A stretch of 64,000 nucleotides of DNA from contig CANMOU010000002.1 of NCBI GenBank assembly GCA_947499555.1, forward strand, positions 383,001 through 447,000, given 5' to 3'. The first letter of the stretch is position 1. Each line of letters begins with the position of its first letter. Origin of the DNA: an uncultured Roseovarius sp. (GTDB taxonomy: Bacteria; Pseudomonadota; Alphaproteobacteria; Rhodobacterales; Rhodobacteraceae). Positions 4,894 to 42,530 of the stretch are shown here, in pieces. The notes beneath the pieces were generated by a model that saw nothing but the letters and a program-made list of their open reading frames with translations, ran no database searches and was not told where the DNA came from. The position numbers and the translations under genes are program-made.

Positions 4894-7800
4894 TTAATGG
4901 AAATCGCGGGATTTCGGGATCACCCGAACATTGCGCGGATGGCCATGGGTGTTATTGGGCAAAGCCTTCTTGACCTCATCAGCCCGCGCCAAAGGCGGCT
5001 CCATGGTATCATTCGACAGGCGGCTTAGCGCATCGCTGCGGTCCAAAAGATGATGGGCCACGACATGAATAACATCCTCACTGCGCTGCACCATGCCGCG
5101 CACATCAATGATCCGGGCGCGCATGATCACCTTACGATAGGCGGTCATCACCTTGGGCCACACCACCAGGTTGGCCACACCGGTTTCATCTTCCAAAGTG
5201 ATGAAACACACCCCTTTCGCACTTCCGGGGCGTTGCCGGATCAAGACGATGCCCGCTAGTGCCACGGATTGACCATTGCGCATCGACATAAGATCGCGCG
5301 CAGTGCGATACCCCTGCTTCTGCATGCTGCGGCGCATGAACGCCATCGGATGCCCTTTCAGCGACAGGCGCGTGGTTTGGTAATCCGCGACCACATGTTC
5401 GCAAACCGGCATCTGCGGCAAAAGATATTGCATCTCTGTGCCTTCGTCCTGTTTCTTGCCAAAGAGCGGCAGATCAGGCGCATCCCGCAGCGCACGCGCG
5501 TCCCAAAGTGCCTGTCTGCGATCAAGCCCCATGGACCTGAACGCATCTGCCGCTGCAAGCCTTCGGATGGTGCCTGCATCCAGCTTTGCCCGGCTTTTCA
5601 ACTCTGCAAGGGAGGTGAAAGATGTCTCGCGCGTGTCCATGATCCTCTCAGCCATGATCTGTTTCATGCCATCAACCTGCCGCAGTCCCAGACGCACGGC
5701 GAAGCTTCCCGGGCCAACAGGTTCGAGCGTGTTGTCCCAATGGCTGAAATTCACATCGGCCTCGCGCACACTTACCCCATGCTCTCTTGCATCACGAACA
5801 ATCTGGGCAGGGGCGTAGAAGCCCATAGGCTGGGAGTTGAGCAAAGCTGCGCAAAAGACATCCGGGTAGTGGCACTTGATCCAGCTTGAGACATAGACCA
5901 GATGCGCAAAACTGGCGGCATGGCTTTCTGGAAATCCGTAATCACCGAAGCCCTTGATCTGATTGAAACAGCGATGTGCGAATTCCGGATCATAGCCGCG
6001 ATTGATCATGCGGCTGACCATTTTGTCCTCTAGCTCGCCAATGGTGCCGCGGGATCGGAAGGTTGCCATGGCCTTGCGCAGCTGATTGGCCTCGTTGGGC
6101 GAAAACTCTGCCGCTACCATGGCGATCTTCATCGCCTGTTCCTGAAAAATCGGTACGCCCTTGGTGCGTTTGAGAACCTTTTTCAGCTCATCAGGGTCAT
6201 GGTCCGGGCCGGGTGAGGGATAGTCTTCGGGTTCCTTACCGCCTCGCCTGCGCAAATAAGGATGCACCATGTCCCCCTGAATAGGACCCGGGCGGACAAT
6301 GGCGACCTGAATGACCAGATCGTAGAATTCGCGTGGCTTGAGGCGCGGCAGCATGTTCATCTGCGCCCGGCTTTCGACCTGGAACACCCCAAGACTGTCG
6401 CCTTTACACAGCATGTCGTAGACCGCGTCATCCTCTTGCGGAATGCTGGCCAGGGTCCATCGCTTGCCGTAATGCGCGTCGATCAGGTCAAAGGCTTTGC
6501 GGATGCATGTCAGCATACCCAAGGCAAGCACATCCACCTTCAGAATGCGCAGCTCATCAATGTCATCCTTGTCCCATTCAATGAAGCTTCGGTCCGGCAT
6601 GGCGCCGTTGCCCACCGGAACAGTTTCGATCAGCTTGCGCTCGGTCAGGATAAAGCCACCCACATGCTGGCCCAGATGGCGCGGCATGCCGATCATCTGA
6701 TCCGCCAATTTGATGGTGCGCGCCATCAGCGGGTCTTTCAGGTCGATGCCAGCTTCGGCGGCTTCTCTTGCACCCACCTCACGGCCCCAGGAGCCCCAGA
6801 TCGTCTTGGCCAGGGCGGTGGTGATATCCTCTGACAGGCCCATAACTTTTCCGACCTCACGTACCGCCATGCGCGGGCGGTAATGAATGACGGTTGCGCA
6901 AAGCGCGGCCCGGTCACGGCCATACTTGTCATAGATATGCTGGATCACCTCTTCGCGGCGCTCATGCTCGAAATCGACGTCGATATCGGGAGGTTCCTTG
7001 CGTTCTTCGCTGATGAAACGCTCAAACAGCAGGTCATTTTTATCAGGGTCCACTGCGGTGATCCCCAGCACATAGCAGACGGCGGAGTTGGCGGCAGAGC
7101 CGCGCCCTTGGCATAGGATCGGGGGCTCACATTCATAGCGGGCGAAATTCACAACCTGCTCGATGGTCAGGAAATATTGCGCGATCTTCAGCTTTGCGAT
7201 CAGAGAAAGCTCCTTGCGCAGGGTGGCTTTAAGCGCGTCCGGCACACCATCGGGATACCGGCGCTCCGCCCCTGCCCAGGTCAGCTCTTCCAGGTATTCC
7301 TGCGGGGTGCGTCCCTCAGGCACCGTTTCCTTGGGGTATTCATAGGCCAGTTCGCGCAGGTCAAAATCGCACATATCCGCCACAATGCGAGATGCGCGGA
7401 TTGCGTGGGGCCATTCGGCGAAGACTTCCACCATCTGCGCAGGCGATTTGAGGTGACGCTCGGCATTGGCATTGAGCAGGAAGCCCGCCTTCTGGATCGT
7501 TGTCTTGTGCAGGATGCAGGTCATCACATCTTGCAAAGGGCGTCTGTCGGGCGCGTGATAACGCACATCGTTGGTTGCCAGAATGGACAGGCTATGCGCT
7601 TTGGCGAAGGCATCGAGACGATTGATCCGCGCCCGGTCATCACCTTGATAGAGATAGCTTGCAGCGATGTATTTCAGTGTTGGCAAAGCCCGCAAACAGC
7701 GCCGAAACCCCGCTTCAAAATAGTCAAGCTGCGGACCGGGAACGGCAATCAACTGCACCCCCTCACTGTGCCGCGCCAGATCATCAAGCGTGATCTCGCA

Positions 7801-8196
7801 AACGCCCTTGGCCTGCCACGCGCCTTTCGTATCCTGCATCTTGCCTTTGGAGAGCAAGGTACACAGCCGCCCATAGGCCGCCCGGTTGCAGGGATATGCG
7901 AGAAACTCTTCTCCGGTGACCAATTGCAGGCGGCAGCCGATCACAGGCGTGATCGCGGTTTTCAGGGCTTCGGTATGCAGCCGGACAACCCCGGCCATGG
8001 TGTTAAGGTCTGCGCAGCCAAGGCTGTCATATCCCAGCGCATGTGCCGTCATTGCAAGATCCACCGCGTCAGAGGCACCGCGCAGGAAGGAAAAGCAGGT
8101 GGTCAGCCCCAGTTCGACATAGGCCGCACGCGGATTGGGCCGGAAGCCGTCACACTCGATGGTGCGGCGCGGATGCTGGTGATCATTCTGAGGCAT
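4894..8196 (-). CDS. dnaE2: Error-prone DNA polymerase III alpha subunit DnaE2
   Basis: Catalytic polymerase of the SOS mutasome, which copies past DNA lesions with ImuB and the beta clamp. The 1100 residues fit the family. The C-family catalytic acids are present in PDIDVDFEHERREEV (403-417), and a third Asp in LKVDVLALGML. A helix-hairpin-helix and an OB fold (SVALAGIVLIRQRPGSAKGV) lie near the C-terminus. The N-terminal PHP domain keeps its fold, but its metal ligands look lost: YVELGLTTCFSF lacks the HxH of active PHP domains and CADLN replaces TDH, so proofreading by PHP is unlikely. It is the last gene of the imuA-imuB-dnaE2 operon, 12 bp after imuB. Confidence 0.97.
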   Translation of the reverse strand: MPQNDHQHPRRTIECDGFRPNPRAAYVELGLTTCFSFLRGASDAVDLAMTAHALGYDSLGCADLNTMAGVVRLHTEALKTAITPVIGCRLQLVTGEEFLAYPCNRAAYGRLCTLLSKGKMQDTKGAWQAKGVCEITLDDLARHSEGVQLIAVPGPQLDYFEAGFRRCLRALPTLKYIAASYLYQGDDRARINRLDAFAKAHSLSILATNDVRYHAPDRRPLQDVMTCILHKTTIQKAGFLLNANAERHLKSPAQMVEVFAEWPHAIRASRIVADMCDFDLRELAYEYPKETVPEGRTPQEYLEELTWAGAERRYPDGVPDALKATLRKELSLIAKLKIAQYFLTIEQVVNFARYECEPPILCQGRGSAANSAVCYVLGITAVDPDKNDLLFERFISEERKEPPDIDVDFEHERREEVIQHIYDKYGRDRAALCATVIHYRPRMAVREVGKVMGLSEDITTALAKTIWGSWGREVGAREAAEAGIDLKDPLMARTIKLADQMIGMPRHLGQHVGGFILTERKLIETVPVGNGAMPDRSFIEWDKDDIDELRILKVDVLALGMLTCIRKAFDLIDAHYGKRWTLASIPQEDDAVYDMLCKGDSLGVFQVESRAQMNMLPRLKPREFYDLVIQVAIVRPGPIQGDMVHPYLRRRGGKEPEDYPSPGPDHDPDELKKVLKRTKGVPIFQEQAMKIAMVAAEFSPNEANQLRKAMATFRSRGTIGELEDKMVSRMINRGYDPEFAHRCFNQIKGFGDYGFPESHAASFAHLVYVSSWIKCHYPDVFCAALLNSQPMGFYAPAQIVRDAREHGVSVREADVNFSHWDNTLEPVGPGSFAVRLGLRQVDGMKQIMAERIMDTRETSFTSLAELKSRAKLDAGTIRRLAAADAFRSMGLDRRQALWDARALRDAPDLPLFGKKQDEGTEMQYLLPQMPVCEHVVADYQTTRLSLKGHPMAFMRRSMQKQGYRTARDLMSMRNGQSVALAGIVLIRQRPGSAKGVCFITLEDETGVANLVVWPKVMTAYRKVIMRARIIDVRGMVQRSEDVIHVVAHHLLDRSDALSRLSNDTMEPPLARADEVKKALPNNTHGHPRNVRVIPKSRDFH

Positions 8197-8208
8197 GACT
8201 TTTTTCCA

Positions 8209-9741
8209 TCACGCAAAACACCCATGCACGAACCAGCGCGGGGCGCCGCCTCGGCCATCCCCATGCAGACCTTCGCGGTAGATCCAGAGCCGCTGCCCGC
8301 TCTGATCCTCGATCTTGAAATAGTCGCGCAATCGCGTGCCGGGCCGGTCATGCCACCATTCAGGGGCGATCCGTTCGGGGCCTGCATAGCGCACCACCCG
8401 AAAAGGCCTTCGCCGCCACACAAACTGGGCAGGCGGACCTTCGGGGACAGCGTAAAGCACGCTGATTTCCTCTGGGTGATCGAAAAGGCGTATGGGCCGC
8501 TCCTGTCGCGCGGCTGTCTCGGTTTCAGGCGGGGCTGCAAGCGCTGCTGCGCTTTTCTCGGCCCGTTCAGGGATATGGCTTTGGCGCAAAACAGGGCGGG
8601 TCACGGCACGTGATCCGAATTTCGCACAAAGCCGGTCCACCAATTGGGTTAGATGCAGATCATCATCCGACCCGCCCTCAAGCCGGTTCTGACGGTGCTG
8701 CAGTTCCTCCACCGCGCCTGCTTCAAGGGTGATCAGGTCAAGCCCAAAACCGGGATTGATCCGCTCAATCTTGTCGCGAAACAGGCTGTGCAGATGTGTT
8801 GGATCGCGCGTTGTGGCGGAGGTGGCCACAGTCACATGGCTGATATCTCCATCGGTTCGGTAGGCGGTGAGAAACAGACGGCGACAGCCCATGCCCGCCT
8901 TGTCCAAAATCTCACAAAGCGCCTCGCACAGCCCCGGCAGATACGGGGTAGGATCAAGGATCGGTTCGGCCAGACGGCTTTGCACCCTGAACCGAGGTCT
9001 GGCATCGACGCTGGCCACGGGTTCGGCCAGTTTTCCCAAGGCTTGATCAAGGCGCAAAAGCGGATTGGCCTCCAGCTTTGCCTTCACGAACCGTCGGGTC
9101 AATGAAAGCCGGGGCACATCCATCAACGCACCGATGGTTTTGAGGCCAAGACGGCCCAAAAGCAGCAGGGTTTCCTCGTTCAACCGCAGCGCTGTGACTG
9201 GCAGGGCGCCCAGTTTATCCGTGACCTGATCGGGGGCACAAATCGACCTGACCGGCCCGAACCGCGCCAGGGCCCAGGCCGCCCCCCAGGTTGGGGCAAC
9301 AGCCAGTTGCGCCTCAAGGCCCAGCAGGGAGAGCTGCGTTTCCATCTCGATGAGCATCGCGGCCTCACCGCCCAGCAAATGATCGGATCCTGTTGTGTCG
9401 AGGATCAATCCGTTGTCTTCATCCCGCACGGTCCATGGGCACCACCGCCGCGCCCAAAGCACCAGCCGGTCAAGTGCAGCCTTGTCACCGGCAAGATCCG
9501 CATACTCGACCTGCAGGTCCGGACAGATGGCCCGCATATCCACCACCCGTGATCCCGGGTTGATCCCGTTCAGGCGCGCCACGCGGTTTGCCGCATGGAT
9601 CACCGGCCCATGATGGCCTTCGCGGGCCAGAACAATGGGGATATCATCCGGCGGCGCGTTGCCCTGCTGCTCCATGACCCGCTGCCAGCGATCCATCGCG
9701 AACTGAGGCAGTGAGATCGAAACAATCCGCCGACCGGTCAT
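8209..9741 (-). CDS. imuB: ImuB, inactive Y-family polymerase homologue
   Basis: Adaptor of the ImuAB-DnaE2 mutasome that links DnaE2 to the beta clamp. The Y-family fold is recognisable, but the catalytic acids are absent, as in ImuB generally. The start is the ATG at 9741 (MTGRRIVSISLPQFAMDRW), typical of ImuB N-termini. The frame is open further upstream, inside imuA, but that extension is unlike the family. The resulting 510 residues are the normal size. It overlaps the 3' end of imuA by 98 bp and is followed by dnaE2 after 12 bp, so translation is probably coupled. Confidence 0.93.
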   Translation of the reverse strand: MTGRRIVSISLPQFAMDRWQRVMEQQGNAPPDDIPIVLAREGHHGPVIHAANRVARLNGINPGSRVVDMRAICPDLQVEYADLAGDKAALDRLVLWARRWCPWTVRDEDNGLILDTTGSDHLLGGEAAMLIEMETQLSLLGLEAQLAVAPTWGAAWALARFGPVRSICAPDQVTDKLGALPVTALRLNEETLLLLGRLGLKTIGALMDVPRLSLTRRFVKAKLEANPLLRLDQALGKLAEPVASVDARPRFRVQSRLAEPILDPTPYLPGLCEALCEILDKAGMGCRRLFLTAYRTDGDISHVTVATSATTRDPTHLHSLFRDKIERINPGFGLDLITLEAGAVEELQHRQNRLEGGSDDDLHLTQLVDRLCAKFGSRAVTRPVLRQSHIPERAEKSAAALAAPPETETAARQERPIRLFDHPEEISVLYAVPEGPPAQFVWRRRPFRVVRYAGPERIAPEWWHDRPGTRLRDYFKIEDQSGQRLWIYREGLHGDGRGGAPRWFVHGCFA

Positions 9742-10321
9742 ACGTGGCCACCCACTGCCCGGGCTTGGCGCGGCGGGAGCGAAACAGGGTAAGTGACCAG
9801 CGTGGACGCCCCGGCGCCTGGGCATCGTGCGGATGCAGGGCAGACGGCACCGAGGATATGCGCCATCTTTCGCGGGCGGCACTGAGATTGGCAGACGCGG
9901 CACGCCGAATGAGCCAGCAGGGGAGGCCCGCCGCCTCTGAGCGCATCGCAAGCCGCTTGGTTGCGGTGAAGTCGAGAGCCGGAGGATCGCCCCAAACCTC
10001 GCCAATCACAGCGCCCAATGCTTTGCATCTTAATCCATCCTCCATTGCCCAAAGCACATCCGCCGCCCGTGACAGATGCACCATGATCACAGGTCGGGCT
10101 GTGCCGATGCCGACCAGATAAGGCCGCGCCGCTTCCTTGCGCGAAAGCCGGTCCTGAACCCAAAGGACAGGCGCATCCGTTCGCGGCAGACGGGCGAGGA
10201 TAAAACCAACAGCGGCAGCATCACTCACCGTTTCGGGGAAAACCTCGGACAAGGTATGCGCAACCGGATCAGGAGTGTGACTCTGACCTGCCAAACGTTT
10301 CTGAACCCTGAGCGACCCCAT
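9644..10321 (-). CDS. imuA: ImuA, RecA-like mutasome protein
   Basis: First gene of the SOS mutasome operon; ImuA is a RecA-like protein needed for DnaE2-dependent damage-induced mutagenesis. The 225 residues include the characteristic ARLPRTDAPVLWVQDRLSRKE segment and the strand-helix pattern around ALGAVIGEVWGD and FTATKRLAMRSEAAGLP, with a basic C-terminal part. A LexA box lies 22 bp upstream of its ATG. The assignment rests on sequence and on its place before imuB and dnaE2. Confidence 0.92.
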   Translation of the reverse strand: MGSLRVQKRLAGQSHTPDPVAHTLSEVFPETVSDAAAVGFILARLPRTDAPVLWVQDRLSRKEAARPYLVGIGTARPVIMVHLSRAADVLWAMEDGLRCKALGAVIGEVWGDPPALDFTATKRLAMRSEAAGLPCWLIRRAASANLSAARERWRISSVPSALHPHDAQAPGRPRWSLTLFRSRRAKPGQWVATYDRSADCFDLTASVRDGSLAAGHGAAGQRAAG

Positions 10322-10342
10322 AAAGACCCGAATCTCGATAAT

Positions 10343-10357
10343 GTTCTCTATTTGTTC
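10343..10357. promoter_or_regulatory. LexA (SOS) box of the imuA-imuB-dnaE2 operon
   Basis: GTTC-TCTATTT-GTTC is an exact match to the alphaproteobacterial LexA operator GTTC-N7-GTTC. It lies 22 bp upstream of the imuA start, where it would cover the core promoter. DNA-damage induction of the operon follows from this. Confidence 0.93.
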
Positions 10358-10411
10358 TAATTCAGGATAGGCATTTGGTCAAATAGCGTTGCACCCACTG
10401 CGAGCCCTTTT

Positions 10412-38097: not shown

Positions 38098-39189
38098 ATG
38101 CTGTCAGGGATCAAGATCGTCGAATTTGAAGGGCTGGGCCCCGGCCCTTTCGCGGCAATGATGCTGGCCGATCTCGGAGCCGAAGTGACCGTGATCCAGC
38201 GCCCCGGCCCGGCCAATCCTACGATGGGCGAACACAACATGCTGGATCGTGGCAAACGGGCGGTGGTGCTTGATCTGAAATCACCCGACGGTCTTACCGC
38301 AGCCCGGGCGCTCCTGGCCGAGGCGGACGCGCTTATCGAGGGGCTGCGCCCCGGCGTGATGGAACGGCTGGGTCTTGGACCTAAGGACGTTCAAAGCACC
38401 AATCCCAAGCTGGTCTATGGCCGGATGACCGGCTGGGGTCAGGACGGGCCACGCGCCCATACCGCCGGGCATGACTACAACTACATCGCCACGTCCGGTG
38501 CGCTCTGGTACGCCTCTACGCCCGGTGACACGCCGCTGACACCCCCCACCATCGTCGGCGATATCGGCGGCGGCGCTTTGTATCTTGTGGCTGGTATTCT
38601 GTCGGGTCTTCTCAATGCCGCGCGCACCGGAAAGGGCACCGTCGTTGACGCCGCCATCGTCGATGGCTCGGCCCATATGATGGCGCTTTTCATGGCCATG
38701 GCGGGCGGTGGCAATGTTTCCAGAACGCGTGGTCAAAGCCTTCTCGATGGCCCGCCCTGGGGCCGGGTCTACGCGTGCGCCGACGGCGCTTATCTTTCCG
38801 TGCAATGCCTTGAGCCACAGTTCTACACGATCTTTCTCACCCGCTTGGGCCTCAGCGATGATCCGACGTTTGCCGACCAGTACGACCGCACGCAATGGCC
38901 CGCGCAAACCTCCCGCCTAGCCCAGATCTTCGCAACCCAGCCCGTGCATCACTGGGCGCAGCTCTTTGACAACACCGATGCCTGCGTCGCGCCCGTCCTT
39001 GATCCGTGGTCGGCCAAGGACGATCCGCACATGGCCGACCGCGCGGTCTGGCACGAGGCCCAGGGCGTGCTCCAACCCGCACCCGCCCCCCGCTTTGATG
39101 GCCACGCGCCCAAACCGGCCCGCACCCCGGACCGCGGTGCCGATACCGAAACCGTCCTGCAGGATCTTCGGAAGCGCGGCCTACTCTAA
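38098..39189 (+). CDS. CaiB/BaiF family CoA-transferase, alpha-methylacyl-CoA racemase-like
   Basis: Enzyme of the family III CoA-transferase fold. The 363 residues start with KIVEFEGLGPGPFAAMMLADLGAEV, the AMACR-style opening, and AGHDYNYIATSGAL holds the active-site His near residue 123. Later DIGGGALYLVAGILSGL provides the Asp. It probably epimerises or transfers CoA on a branched acyl-CoA. It shares its 3' end with the convergent WYL regulator (9-bp overlap). Confidence 0.9.
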   Translation: MLSGIKIVEFEGLGPGPFAAMMLADLGAEVTVIQRPGPANPTMGEHNMLDRGKRAVVLDLKSPDGLTAARALLAEADALIEGLRPGVMERLGLGPKDVQSTNPKLVYGRMTGWGQDGPRAHTAGHDYNYIATSGALWYASTPGDTPLTPPTIVGDIGGGALYLVAGILSGLLNAARTGKGTVVDAAIVDGSAHMMALFMAMAGGGNVSRTRGQSLLDGPPWGRVYACADGAYLSVQCLEPQFYTIFLTRLGLSDDPTFADQYDRTQWPAQTSRLAQIFATQPVHHWAQLFDNTDACVAPVLDPWSAKDDPHMADRAVWHEAQGVLQPAPAPRFDGHAPKPARTPDRGADTETVLQDLRKRGLL

Positions 39190-39888
39190 AGGCTTGCTGG
39201 CGTTGTAGAGCACCCAGTCTTCTTGCTCCAACGTCTCTGTCCAGGCCTTGCGCAACCTGTCAGCCTCATCGGAAAAGAGAGCGCCAGTGGGGGTCATCGC
39301 CTTGATCCGGTCGATCCGGAAGCTGCGAAAGTCCTGCCTCAACCCACACCAGGCGGCCAACAGCACCACTTCAATGTGATAGGTCAAAGCCAATGGTTTG
39401 ACTGCGCGTGTCGTCTCAACTCCTTTCAGATCGAGATAGGTGACCTCAAGCTCCACCGCGTCACGAATATGCGCACGCAGCCGCTCGGCATCGGCCCCCT
39501 CGCGCGGGATCCGGTTCCAGCCGGACACCCGCAACGGCACGTGCGGCGCCCCACCAGGCAGGGCCGAGGCGATCTTTTCGCCCGCCCGCCGCGCCGCGCG
39601 CTCCAGGCCCGGATCCCCCGTGCGGTGCAAAAGCGCCATGCCGACATAAAGCGCCTCCAACTCCTCGGTGCTGAACATCAGCGGCGGCAAATCATACCCC
39701 GCGCGCAGCATATACCCCACGCCAGCCTCACCATCTATGGGAACGCGCATCGCTTGCAAGGCGACCATGTCGCGATAGATCGTGCGCTTGGTCACCTCCA
39801 GCTCGTTACCAAGGCGTTGCGCTGTCACCGGCGCATCGGCAGAGCGCAGGATCTGGATGATATCAAATAGGCGTGTCGAACGGGTCAT
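39181..39888 (-). CDS. WYL-domain transcriptional regulator (YafY type)
   Basis: A 235-residue regulator with an N-terminal helix-turn-helix (RLFDIIQILRSADAPVTAQRLGNELEVTKRTIYRDMVALQ, residues 6-45) and a WYL ligand-binding domain (residues 136-205, with LTYHIEVVLLAAWCGLRQDFRSFRIDRI). It is divergent from a five-gene unit; an inverted repeat in the 83-bp gap is probably its operator. The ligand may be a nucleotide or metabolite, as in other WYL proteins; unknown here. Confidence 0.93.
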   Translation of the reverse strand: MTRSTRLFDIIQILRSADAPVTAQRLGNELEVTKRTIYRDMVALQAMRVPIDGEAGVGYMLRAGYDLPPLMFSTEELEALYVGMALLHRTGDPGLERAARRAGEKIASALPGGAPHVPLRVSGWNRIPREGADAERLRAHIRDAVELEVTYLDLKGVETTRAVKPLALTYHIEVVLLAAWCGLRQDFRSFRIDRIKAMTPTGALFSDEADRLRKAWTETLEQEDWVLYNASKPLE

Positions 39889-39907
39889 GTCGGGCAGTCT
39901 AGCATGA

Positions 39908-39931
39908 CTGCTGACAGTATGGTGTCAGCAG
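39908..39931. promoter_or_regulatory. Operator of the WYL regulator
   Basis: CTGCTGACA-GTATGG-TGTCAGCAG, a perfect 9-bp inverted repeat with a 6-base centre, lies 20 bp upstream of the regulator start and 41 bp upstream of the divergent operon. Its position suits control of both promoters by the WYL protein. Confidence 0.75.
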
Positions 39932-39971
39932 GGTTTTGCTAGGGTATTCACGACACCACAGGACATCCGCC

Positions 39972-40433
39972 GTGCTGCAAGACTACAACGCCAAATCCGG
40001 CATCCTTATCGCGGTCTGGACCCTCGAGATTCAGACACTCCCCGAAGATGTGGACCGTATCCTTGATGCGGTGATGAAGGTGCACCCGTTGGGCTATGGC
40101 CGCTACCAGCGCAACGCGTCGGTCTCGGCGGTCGGGGCAGAGACAACAACGCCCCAGGCCAATTCAACAACCTCCACACATCAGGCGGATTATGTTCCCG
40201 GCACGGCCATGACCTATCCGATGGTCGAGCTGAAAATATCGATCGAACGCGACCTGCAGGCCCTGGAACAAGTGATGGATACCATCCTCGATACGCACCA
40301 CTACGAAGAGCCGGTGATTTTCGTGCGCGAAGACTGGGCCAGCCGCGCGGCCTACGATCCCAAAAGCAAGAACCCCAACCGCTGGTGGAACAACGGCCGC
40401 GGTCTGCCAGACACATTGGAGAGCCAGACATGA
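39972..40433 (+). CDS. PII/CutA/NIF3-like small protein A
   Basis: A 153-residue protein of unknown function, related to the product of 41419-41868. Shared features are PEDVDRILDAV near residue 24, VELKISIERDLQALEQVMDTI, THHYEEPVIFV (residues 108-118) and NPNRWWN near 134-140. The H-Y-E-P-V block is the mark of CutA/PII-like domains of the NIF3/YqfO type (HPYEEP). An inserted Thr/Ser-rich stretch (residues 56-72) is absent from the paralogue. The GTG at 39972 follows AGGA by 8 bases. It is the first gene of the WYL-controlled unit and overlaps the next by ATGA. Confidence 0.75.
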   Translation: MLQDYNAKSGILIAVWTLEIQTLPEDVDRILDAVMKVHPLGYGRYQRNASVSAVGAETTTPQANSTTSTHQADYVPGTAMTYPMVELKISIERDLQALEQVMDTILDTHHYEEPVIFVREDWASRAAYDPKSKNPNRWWNNGRGLPDTLESQT

Positions 40434-41233
40434 CGGCCTTTCGTGCCCTACATCATACTGGGGTACCCTTCGTTATCCCCAACCCATGGGATACTGGATC
40501 TGCCCGCATCCTCGCAGGGCTGGGGTTTCCCGCTCTTGCCACCACGAGCGCCGGAATGGCGTTTTCCAAAGGCCAGATCGAAGGCATGGTCCAGCCGAAA
40601 GAGGTGCTCGCACATTGCCGCGAAATCGTTGCTGCCACGCCATTGCCGGTCAGCGCCGATCTTGAAAAAGGATTTGGTGACAGCCCGGAAAGTGCGGCAG
40701 AGACCATCAGGGAAGCCGCCGCAACAGGGCTGGCCGGGGGATCGATCGAAGACCATACCGGAAACCGGAATAATCCGATTTTCGACGCCTCTCTGGCGAT
40801 TGAACGTGTGGCCGCCGCGGCCGAGGCGGCACGCAGTTTGCCGGATGATTTCGTTCTGACCGCGCGCTGCGAAAGCCTGCTTTGGGGCGAAGAACGGCTT
40901 GATCCGGTGATCAGACGTCTGCAGGCTTACGAGGCGGCGGGCGCTGACGTGCTCTATGCGCCCGGGCTACCTGACCTTGACGCGATTCGCGCAGTTTGCG
41001 CGGCGGTCTCGGTTCCCGTGAATGTTGTGATGGGGCTGCCGGGGCAGTCTTACAGCCTTGCGGAACTGGCCGAGGCTGGCGTCGCTCGGATCAGCGTGGG
41101 CTCCGCCTTTTTCCGGGTGGCCTATGGCGCGATGATCAATGCCGCGCGCGAAATCGTCGAGACCGGGCAGTTCTCTCAGACAGCAGACGGGATCGGCTTT
41201 GCCGAGCTCGAGACCTTTTTCCAATCCTCCTAG
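40430..41233 (+). CDS. PEP-mutase/isocitrate-lyase superfamily enzyme
   Basis: A 267-residue TIM-barrel enzyme. PNPWDTGSARILAGLGFPALATTSAGMAFSKG fits the first strand and loop, and ADLEKGFGD (76-84) holds the metal-binding acids. SIEDHTGN is the next catalytic loop. The KKCGH motif of isocitrate lyase is absent, so it is more likely an oxaloacetate-hydrolase/2,3-dimethylmalate-lyase or carboxyPEP-mutase relative. It cleaves or rearranges a 2-oxo-acid or malate-type substrate; which one is not clear. It lies between two PII-like proteins. Confidence 0.88.
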   Translation: MTAFRALHHTGVPFVIPNPWDTGSARILAGLGFPALATTSAGMAFSKGQIEGMVQPKEVLAHCREIVAATPLPVSADLEKGFGDSPESAAETIREAAATGLAGGSIEDHTGNRNNPIFDASLAIERVAAAAEAARSLPDDFVLTARCESLLWGEERLDPVIRRLQAYEAAGADVLYAPGLPDLDAIRAVCAAVSVPVNVVMGLPGQSYSLAELAEAGVARISVGSAFFRVAYGAMINAAREIVETGQFSQTADGIGFAELETFFQSS

Positions 41234-41243
41234 GAGACATCTC

Positions 41244-41426
41244 ATGATCAAGTACTACTACCCTGACGGCAGCTACTGTTTCCGCGCGCTGCATACCACG
41301 CATGCGGTTTACGTGGCAGATGATGGCAAGCTCATTGCCCGCACAATGCGCCCCGACAATTCAGAGCTCTACGAGTTTGAGATCACCGGTTTCGAGCTTT
41401 TGGAGACGGGAGTGCGTTATGAGTAA
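41244..41426 (+). CDS. 60-residue protein of the WYL-controlled unit
   Basis: A short protein with TAGGAGA 8 bases before its ATG and an 8-bp overlap with the next gene, so it is very probably translated. It has an all-beta look (YYYPDGSYCFRALHTTHAVYVADDGKLIARTM) and no known motif. No function recognised; it could be a small subunit of the neighbouring PII-like protein. Confidence 0.65.
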   Translation: MIKYYYPDGSYCFRALHTTHAVYVADDGKLIARTMRPDNSELYEFEITGFELLETGVRYE

Positions 41427-41868
41427 GCCTTCTATAATTGAAACAGGTTTTGACACCAAACCGATTGAGATGCAGCCCATGTGGGCGCTGATGTTTCAGG
41501 CCCCTGTCGAAGACGTGGACCGCATCTTTGAGGCCGTCACCGAAGTCGCCCCGCTGGTGCAGGGCAAGACCGACCGCAACGGCTATCGCGCCCCCGGCGG
41601 GTTTGAATATTACCGCCCCCGCGAAGGCACGCCAACCGGGGCCGAGGACGAAACCCGAAAGCGGCCCGGTGTGGATGAGATGCGGTTCTTCCTGCCCCGC
41701 GACCCCGACATGCTGCGCGCCGTGATCGAGGCGATCTACGAGGTGCACAGCTACTACGAGCCGGTCATCACCGTGACGGATGTCCTGCGGTCCCAATGCA
41801 AGGGCCTTGATGACAGCCAGAACCCGCATCGCTGGTGGAACAAGAGCGGCGACTGGAAGACCGACTGA
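41419..41868 (+). CDS. PII/CutA/NIF3-like small protein B
   Basis: A 149-residue paralogue of the first gene of the unit: MWALMFQAPVEDVDRIFEAV, EMRFFLPRDPDMLRAVIEAI, VHSYYEPVITV (109-119) and NPHRWWNKSGDW near 135 match in order. The N-terminal 20 residues are extra. Two diverged copies in one operon suggest a heteromeric complex or a catalytic plus regulatory pair. It starts at the ATG at 41419, inside the end of the 60-residue gene. Confidence 0.75.
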   Translation: MSKPSIIETGFDTKPIEMQPMWALMFQAPVEDVDRIFEAVTEVAPLVQGKTDRNGYRAPGGFEYYRPREGTPTGAEDETRKRPGVDEMRFFLPRDPDMLRAVIEAIYEVHSYYEPVITVTDVLRSQCKGLDDSQNPHRWWNKSGDWKTD

Positions 41869-41888
41869 CACTCAAAAGGAGACAACAG

Positions 41889-42530
41889 ATGCAAGACATT
41901 TCCATCTACCTGCCGGGCATCCTGCTCGCTTACTCCGCATTCCTTGTGGCCATCGCCAGTCCGGGTCCAAACATACTTGCGGTCATGGGCACGTCCATGA
42001 GCGTTGGGCGGCGTTCAGGCATCGCACTTGCGCTGGGTGTGGCCACCGGCTCGTTCACCTGGGCTGTGCTGACGGTTGCCGGTCTTTCCGCGATTTTGGC
42101 CACCTATGCCTCCGCGCTCTTTCTGATCAAGGTGTTCGGCGGGCTTTACCTGCTTTGGCTGGCCTACAAATCCTTCAGGTCAGCGATAGCCAAACACGAC
42201 ATCGAGGCGAAGGCACTTGCCGGTGGCTTACGTACACCGATGGGCTATTTCTCCCGTGGATATATCATCCAGATGACCAATCCAAAGGCCGCGTTGGCCT
42301 GGATCGCCATCATATCGCTCGGCCTCAAACAAGGTGCCCCACTTTGGGTCGGGGCGGTGATCGTGATCGGCACCTTCGCGCTCTCAATCATCATCCACGT
42401 GATCTATGCCTTGGCGTTCTCGACACCCGTTATGGCGCGTCTCTATGGTCGGGCACGGCGCGGGATCCAGACCGTTCTGGGATGCGTCTTCGCATTTGCG
42501 GGTCTGAAGCTGCTGACCTCTCGAAGCTAG
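41889..42530 (+). CDS. LysE/RhtB-family exporter
   Basis: A 213-residue exporter with six helices. AIASPGPNILAVMGTSMSVGRRSGI near residue 21 is the family signature; FGGLYLLWLAYKSFRSA and GYIIQMTNPKAALAWI follow. Members pump out amino acids or their analogues, so it may clear an amino-acid-like product or toxin handled by the upstream enzyme. AAGGAGA precedes the ATG at 41889. Last gene of the WYL-controlled unit, 20 bp after PII-like B. Confidence 0.93.
   Translation: MQDISIYLPGILLAYSAFLVAIASPGPNILAVMGTSMSVGRRSGIALALGVATGSFTWAVLTVAGLSAILATYASALFLIKVFGGLYLLWLAYKSFRSAIAKHDIEAKALAGGLRTPMGYFSRGYIIQMTNPKAALAWIAIISLGLKQGAPLWVGAVIVIGTFALSIIIHVIYALAFSTPVMARLYGRARRGIQTVLGCVFAFAGLKLLTSRS

Follow-up and report, generated by a model that had tools for sequence, protein, structure and literature searches.

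The WYL-domain regulators PafBC and DriD govern DNA-damage responses. A WYL regulator also faces a row of five genes, across an operator-like palindrome, in the 64,000-nucleotide stretch analysed here (the window), i.e., positions 383,001 to 447,000 of contig CANMOU010000002.1 (assembly GCA_947499555.1) from an uncultured Roseovarius sp. Two of the five genes encode small PII-like proteins, here called S1 and S2, and a third encodes a 60-residue protein, S60. Sequence comparison suggests, at a probability of roughly 0.55, that the locus is a WYL-regulated genotoxic-stress cassette. Like the window protein, PafBC has a WYL domain with aligned arginines; the window protein differs from PafBC and DriD in its short, YafY-like architecture of 235 residues and in having one palindrome in its own genome. 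SiwR of M. smegmatis is described in PMC10693628 as a characterised WYL regulator that binds single-stranded DNA (ssDNA) and controls neighbouring genes under genotoxic stress, and its double variant R204A-R207A loses ssDNA binding. As in the window, the siwR gene lies beside small stress genes (DinB/YfiT genes) with a palindrome in the shared promoter, and some SiwR loci have glyoxalase-like neighbours, a further likeness. SiwR differs in its cargo, its phylum and the presence of a WCX domain, and the window operator letters TGTCA/TGACA are absent from the SiwR text.

The LexA/SOS regulon of Alphaproteobacteria is marked by GTTC/GAAC boxes at S1 relatives, dnaE2, mmcB and imuB, unlike the window operon, which has a WYL palindrome instead of a LexA box. 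To our knowledge, there is no agreed function for stand-alone YqfO domains. Stand-alone YqfO-like proteins of COG3323 (subgroup D in the DUF34/NIF3 study, PMC8469502) resemble S1 and S2 in having an HPYE-type motif and a PII/CutA fold without a NIF3 domain; S1 and S2 differ from them by a C-terminal NPxRWWN segment and by the link to LexA and WYL. Among the matches listed by one open library (titles and abstract openings), no report placed the YqfO/COG3323, PII-like/CutA family in a damage response, and the same holds for the matches that concern WYL with NIF3/YqfO/CutA, LexA with WYL/MmcB, or WYL/YafY with the partial operator. The LexA/SOS boxes at S1 genes elsewhere are a new finding. The features of the locus are as follows.

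39181-39888, minus strand: WYL regulator, 235 residues, HTH_11 and WYL domains
39908-39931, no strand: operator-like palindrome of 24 bp, CTGCTGACA-GTATGG-TGTCAGCAG
39972-40433, plus strand: S1, GTG start, stand-alone YqfO/COG3323-like PII-like protein with C-terminal NPNRWWN
40430-41233, plus strand: enzyme of the ICL/PEPM superfamily with PEP-mutase fold (PF13714)
41244-41426, plus strand: S60, 60 residues, all-beta model
41419-41868, plus strand: S2, second YqfO-like PII-like protein, with NPHRWWN
41889-42530, plus strand: LysE/RhtB-type exporter (Pfam LysE)

Gene calls verified the layout given by the initial annotation, with the WYL gene facing five closely packed genes, whose neighbours overlap by 4 or 8 bp or stand 10 or 20 bp apart. 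The 9-bp inverted repeat at 39908-39931 is indeed perfect at the sequence level, and an alignment recovered the motifs common to S1 and S2 in the same order.

LexA and WYL signs at the S1 relatives

Relatives of S1 and S2 (the S family) were sought in genome samples and occurred, at E<=0.001, in 23 of 295 family genomes with S2 as query, 24 of 290 with S1 as query, and 18 of 60 genus genomes (genomes and loci carry G and L numbers). A class-wide sample had matches in 14 of 385 genomes, two of the 14 being already in the earlier samples. The alphaproteobacterial LexA box was taken as GAAC-N7-GAAC and the Gram-positive type as GAAC-N4-GTTC; both consensus forms (GTTC/GAAC boxes) are named in PMC6473078. 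Among the regions upstream of 138 S genes, counted with duplicates, 22 have an exact box (0/138 for the reversed-motif control) and 21 the WYL operator, and no region holds both. Removal of eight duplicate loci left 92 S1 loci, in which three WYL labels were set by hand where S1 lies inside a WYL-headed cluster. Direct LexA boxes occur at 21 of them, among others in Roseibium, Thalassobaculum, Thalassospira, Jiella, Roseicyclus, and Pelagimonas. Of these boxes, 18 are of the alphaproteobacterial type and three, in Chloroflexi-named records, are GAAC-N4-GTTC; such records, like those named Actinomycetes or Acidimicrobiales, are metagenome-assembled genomes, in which misbinning is possible. The others comprise 11 loci behind dnaE2 (9) or mmcB (2), 18 with WYL, 5 with ArsR, and 37 with none of these signs. 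By comparison, a LexA box lies within 80 bp at only 4 of 618 non-S gene starts (L117-L196, crude gene calls), and Fisher's test of 18/92 (97 bp) vs 4/618 gives 1e-13 with relatedness ignored. One of the four boxed non-S starts is mmcB (L193), and two (L143, L153) are divergent from S1 and, by their coordinates, appear to share the LexA box of the adjoining S1.

The links to SOS genes extend to operons. In the nine dnaE2-S1 loci, all from Tateyamaria and therefore perhaps the product of one event, a LexA box matching at 7 of 8 positions lies 52 bp before dnaE2 (GAACAAAAAGTGAAT, in one locus GAACAAAATATGAAT); the mmcB-S1 order was found twice. S60 occurs in two contexts, either with S1 and WYL or after mmcB. 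Of 13 other genomes with S60, seven have it behind mmcB, and in six of these an exact LexA box immediately precedes mmcB. In one (L106), mmcB was not detected and the box lies in the same place, 89 bp before S60; one (G054) has WYL, and four have S60 elsewhere. Pfam confirmed one MmcB and one DUF6324, the other cases being matches to these. The order imuB-ArsR-S3 is present in five loci with LexA boxes before imuB, where ImuB rests on Pfam IMS for the L098 protein and on likeness to it at the other loci; none of 16 ArsR-S loci has an exact LexA box upstream of ArsR. S3-type genes are usually partnered by an ArsR-type regulator with a CLDWTER-like C-terminal motif (L043, L047, L098, L101, L052). 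A quick tree, built on few columns and with 50 of its 89 inner branches open, requires seven changes for LexA and six for WYL, of which starred branches force 1 and 2, respectively. The gammaproteobacterial SOS box CTGT-N8-ACAG (<=1 mismatch) was found at none of 17 S1 loci, including all four from Gammaproteobacteria/Arenicellales.

Across all deduplicated loci, the type of switch follows the subfamily. For S2-type genes (43% identity or more), a WYL gene or palindrome heads the cluster in 18 of 18 places, 16 of them by distance; L089 and L091 are distal in operons headed by WYL, and in L088 and L339 only the palindrome is present. S3-type genes (n = 21) go with ArsR in 15 places, LexA in one and none in five, and S4-type genes (n = 5) with WYL in two and ArsR in three. 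S1-type genes are mixed: of 96 places, 21 have a WYL gene or operator, 5 have ArsR, 23 have a direct LexA box, and 47, including the dnaE2 and mmcB cases, have none of these; these counts differ slightly from those of the 92 loci because they add the class sample and use wider windows. Three weaker members were kept separate (ArsR 1, none 2). The class sample contributed 13 further S places in 12 genomes: S1-type genes with LexA (2, L338 being matched in two pieces), with the WYL operator (1) or with neither (1), S2-type genes with a WYL gene or operator in 6 of 6 places, and S3/S4-type genes with ArsR in 3 of 3.

Two groups of S1 genes have surroundings of their own. In Pseudovibrio (L131, L151, L155, L158, L161, L164), S1 is preceded by a membrane-like protein of 62-66 residues and has no exact LexA or WYL site. 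The S1 genes of Anderseniella (L137, L154, L165) carry the WYL palindrome, in L137 with one mismatch, although their part of the tree is rich in LexA loci; no WYL match was found within 1.5 kb of them.

The palindrome as a mark of the WYL class

The full palindrome, CTGCTGACA-N6-TGTCAGCAG, is unique in its own 3.7-Mb genome at <=2 mismatches (reversed-pattern control, 0). Its core recurs in other genera and orders in the spacer that separates WYL from the first gene, beyond what chance would give: of 13 such spacers examined, that of the window among them, 12 contain TGACA-N6-TGTCA and the thirteenth reads TGCCA-N6-TGGCA. Four of five more WYL loci have the core as well, the fifth (L150) having one mismatch. 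The form TGCTGACA-N6-TGTCAGCA occurs in 32 of 285 family genomes (reversed control, 0), and a WYL match accompanies it at 26 of 30 loci, counted one per genome with the window locus included. The cargo at these loci is often a VOC-like gene before WYL, elsewhere EamA, PPOX or a PEPM enzyme, and the row of operator, VOC-like gene and WYL is common in the Rhodobacteraceae sample (L256-L281, many). The shorter CTGACA-N6-TGTCAG matches 26 of 60 genus genomes; many of these sites, having no WYL gene or recognisable partner, may be chance matches.

The palindrome also lies upstream of uvrB in five genera (G165, G052, G032, G145, and, with one mismatch, G049), and in each of the five genomes the operator also accompanies a WYL gene at another locus. 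UvrB was identified by NCBIfam in G145, by a match to G145 in G032, G052, and G049, and by eye in G165. The loci in question are L254, L278, L300, L302, L305, L307, and L310. In G052, the uvrB palindrome adjoins an exact LexA box. A LexA-like box (<=1 mismatch) is present at 16 of 30 uvrB loci vs 7 in the control, the 30 being the best-scoring of 61 genomes.

Genotoxic stress and other explanations

Genotoxic-stress control is the preferred reading because of the LexA boxes at S1 relatives and the links to mmcB, imuB, dnaE2, and uvrB. Since the S1 branch of the family is under LexA elsewhere, the window WYL regulator may do LexA's job at this locus. A WYL dimer would sit on the 24-bp palindrome between the WYL gene and the operon, as conservation of the site suggests, and damage would probably be sensed as ssDNA on the WYL-domain arginines, by family likeness to PafBC, DriD, and SiwR. 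In its response to damage, the regulator would turn on S1-enzyme-S60-S2-LysE; S1 and S2 would be expected to be trimeric, with a small molecule that resembles a nucleotide or arises from damage as their ligand. That the enzyme and exporter clear a reactive metabolite is a guess. The position of S1 relatives behind an SOS switch suggests that bacterial DNA-damage responses have a part not yet recognised. A wider proposal is more tentative and falls a little short of even odds: S1-type proteins would be an unrecognised PII-like DNA-damage component across phyla, whose gene moved among LexA, WYL, and ArsR-type switches while staying a stress gene, and the WYL regulators with TGCTGACA-N6-TGTCAGCA would constitute another damage regulon of Rhodobacteraceae, independent of LexA and extending to uvrB. 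If true, the SOS response gains a conserved PII-like protein family that has no Pfam entry, and the small YafY-like WYL regulators of Alphaproteobacteria are tied to DNA damage via an operator that can be searched for in any genome. A damage-inducible, easily deleted gene would also make the function of stand-alone YqfO proteins testable.

Several observations weigh against genotoxic-stress control. The window operon has no LexA box at its promoter, where the best site has 3 mismatches, and 37 of the 92 S1 loci show no LexA, WYL, ArsR, dnaE2 or mmcB sign; these include L136 and L180, with S60 after S1, and L141, with two 1-mismatch boxes. The excess of LexA boxes lies in exact boxes; at <=1 mismatch they number 31/138 vs 12/138 in the control. 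The uvrB operator is rare (3 of the 30 uvrB loci at <=1 mismatch, the others having at least 5), and the WYL regulators of the genomes with uvrB palindromes are only ~40% identical to that of the window. Lastly, VOC, PPOX or EamA genes accompany WYL at many of the loci that have this operator, a cargo that fits chemical detoxification as well as DNA damage. Such detoxification, in which WYL would sense a xenobiotic small molecule, the cargo (PEPM-fold enzyme, LysE/EamA, PPOX, VOC, GNAT) would modify and export it, and S1/S2 would sense or carry it, is an unlikely alternative. It draws on related WYL loci with EamA and PPOX, PEPM and PPOX, VOC, or a GNAT-like gene and PEPM, and on the recurrence of S2 or S4 with EamA under WYL or ArsR, but it leaves the LexA boxes at S1, the dnaE2/mmcB operons, and the uvrB operators unexplained. 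The two may also both be true, in the form of a putative defence against genotoxic natural products with damage as the trigger and export or modification as the remedy; this rather improbable combination would cover both the SOS links and the cargo of exporter, VOC, and PPOX genes. The metabolic unit proposed by the initial annotation, with an enzyme acting on a 2-oxo-acid, PII-like proteins sensing a metabolite, and LysE exporting a product, agrees with the RhtB type of the exporter and with an enzyme family that binds keto acids (2ze3). However, enzyme and exporter are dispensable and S1 stands without them under LexA in relatives, which makes a purely metabolic role very improbable; the comparative evidence goes to genotoxic-stress control instead.

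Composition of the cassette and its proteins

The initial annotation would have been refuted if the genes did not recur together elsewhere or if the two small proteins had unrelated folds. The genes do recur together in other genomes, in WYL clusters of both the genus and class samples. WYL clusters make up 8 of 15 S loci fetched from the genus; another (G333) has the operator and S2 with no WYL gene nearby, and the remaining 6 are not WYL clusters. The full set of S1, enzyme, S60, S2, and LysE is present in the window genome and in G302, G325, and G348 of the genus sample, with a third S gene in G325 and G348; in G325 (L089, about 7275) the enzyme match is split in two frames. Smaller sets are WYL-S1-enzyme-S60-S2 (G346), WYL-S1-S60-S2 (G297), WYL-S1-S60-enzyme (G303), WYL-S1-S60 (G351), WYL-S1-S60-PPOX (G295), and, in another genus, WYL-S60-enzyme (G054). 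In the class sample, G456 has WYL, S2, a GNAT-like open reading frame (ORF), and the enzyme, and G727 has the same row with S60 before S2, the GNAT-like label being given by eye. In G339 (L292), only a 90-residue S1-like ORF stands between WYL and S60. Enzyme and exporter are therefore optional, and the idea of one fixed five-gene system was rejected, as other genomes hold subsets from which one or both of these genes may be missing.

The WYL regulator matches Pfam HTH_11 (E 6e-17) and WYL (E 1e-11), both above cut-off, and at 235 residues is too short for a C-terminal WCX domain. PafBC is its best PDB match (E 1.1e-7) and DriD is not among the 26 PDB matches; R188-S-F-R191-I-D-R194 aligns with R-N-F-R-L-D-R of PafBC (the R-x-x-R-x-x-R arginines). 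In PADLOC, it matches WYL models (best E 9e-60) and, weakly, one DRT and one AbiEii model; S1, enzyme, S60, and S2 have no PADLOC match, and LysE has only a weak methyltransferase match (E 0.001). A phage-defence island was rejected, since hardly anything but the WYL protein speaks for it.

At 33% identity (E 4e-16), S1 and S2 are homologues, which speaks against unrelated folds. Profile and structure checks agree with the earlier assignment to the PII/CutA/YqfO type, with the ferredoxin-like fold seen for S1 in a model (predicted local distance difference test score, pLDDT, 94; top structural match, the YqfO PII-like domain) and for S2 through homology. In a sequence-profile comparison, the A1 profile matched 2gx8 (B. 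cereus YqfO) at E 4.2e-7 and SA1388 at E 0.004. No Pfam family lies above cut-off for S1, S2 or S60; S1 reaches 12.5 bits vs the CutA1 (PF03091) gathering score of 22.4, S2 has no CutA1 match, and only 1 of 61 A2 members has a Pfam match at E<=0.01. Nothing below E 0.08 was found in PHROGs for S1, S60 or S2, and no viral contig matched S2 peptide patterns.

The 2-methylisocitrate lyase motif is KRCGH. The enzyme (Pfam PEP_mutase, E 1e-77; PDB 4lsb, E 1e-79, and 2ze3, DFA0005, E 4e-41) reads IEDHTGNRNNP at the place expected for it and is therefore unlikely to be a 2-methylisocitrate lyase; NCBIfam prpB scores 85 of 354 bits. The exporter matches Pfam LysE (E 1e-32), and its top NCBIfam model is the RhtB-like subfamily TIGR00949 (E 2e-37, below its cut-off). 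For S60, there was no Pfam or NCBIfam match and the PDB profile search gave a best E of 2.2; AlphaFold2 models from five sequences only were all-beta, with pLDDT ~88 (best 88.3) in the top two and 61-69 in the other three (weakest 61.5). The best clue to the function of S60 is its pair of contexts, with S1 under WYL and behind mmcB under LexA.

Elsewhere in the window, positions 5332-10378 hold a dnaE2-like match (8121-5332, minus strand) and an imuB-like match (9741-8212, minus strand), upstream of which an ORF is imuA by position only. The single exact LexA box of the whole window, at 10343, lies in this dnaE2/imuB-like region.

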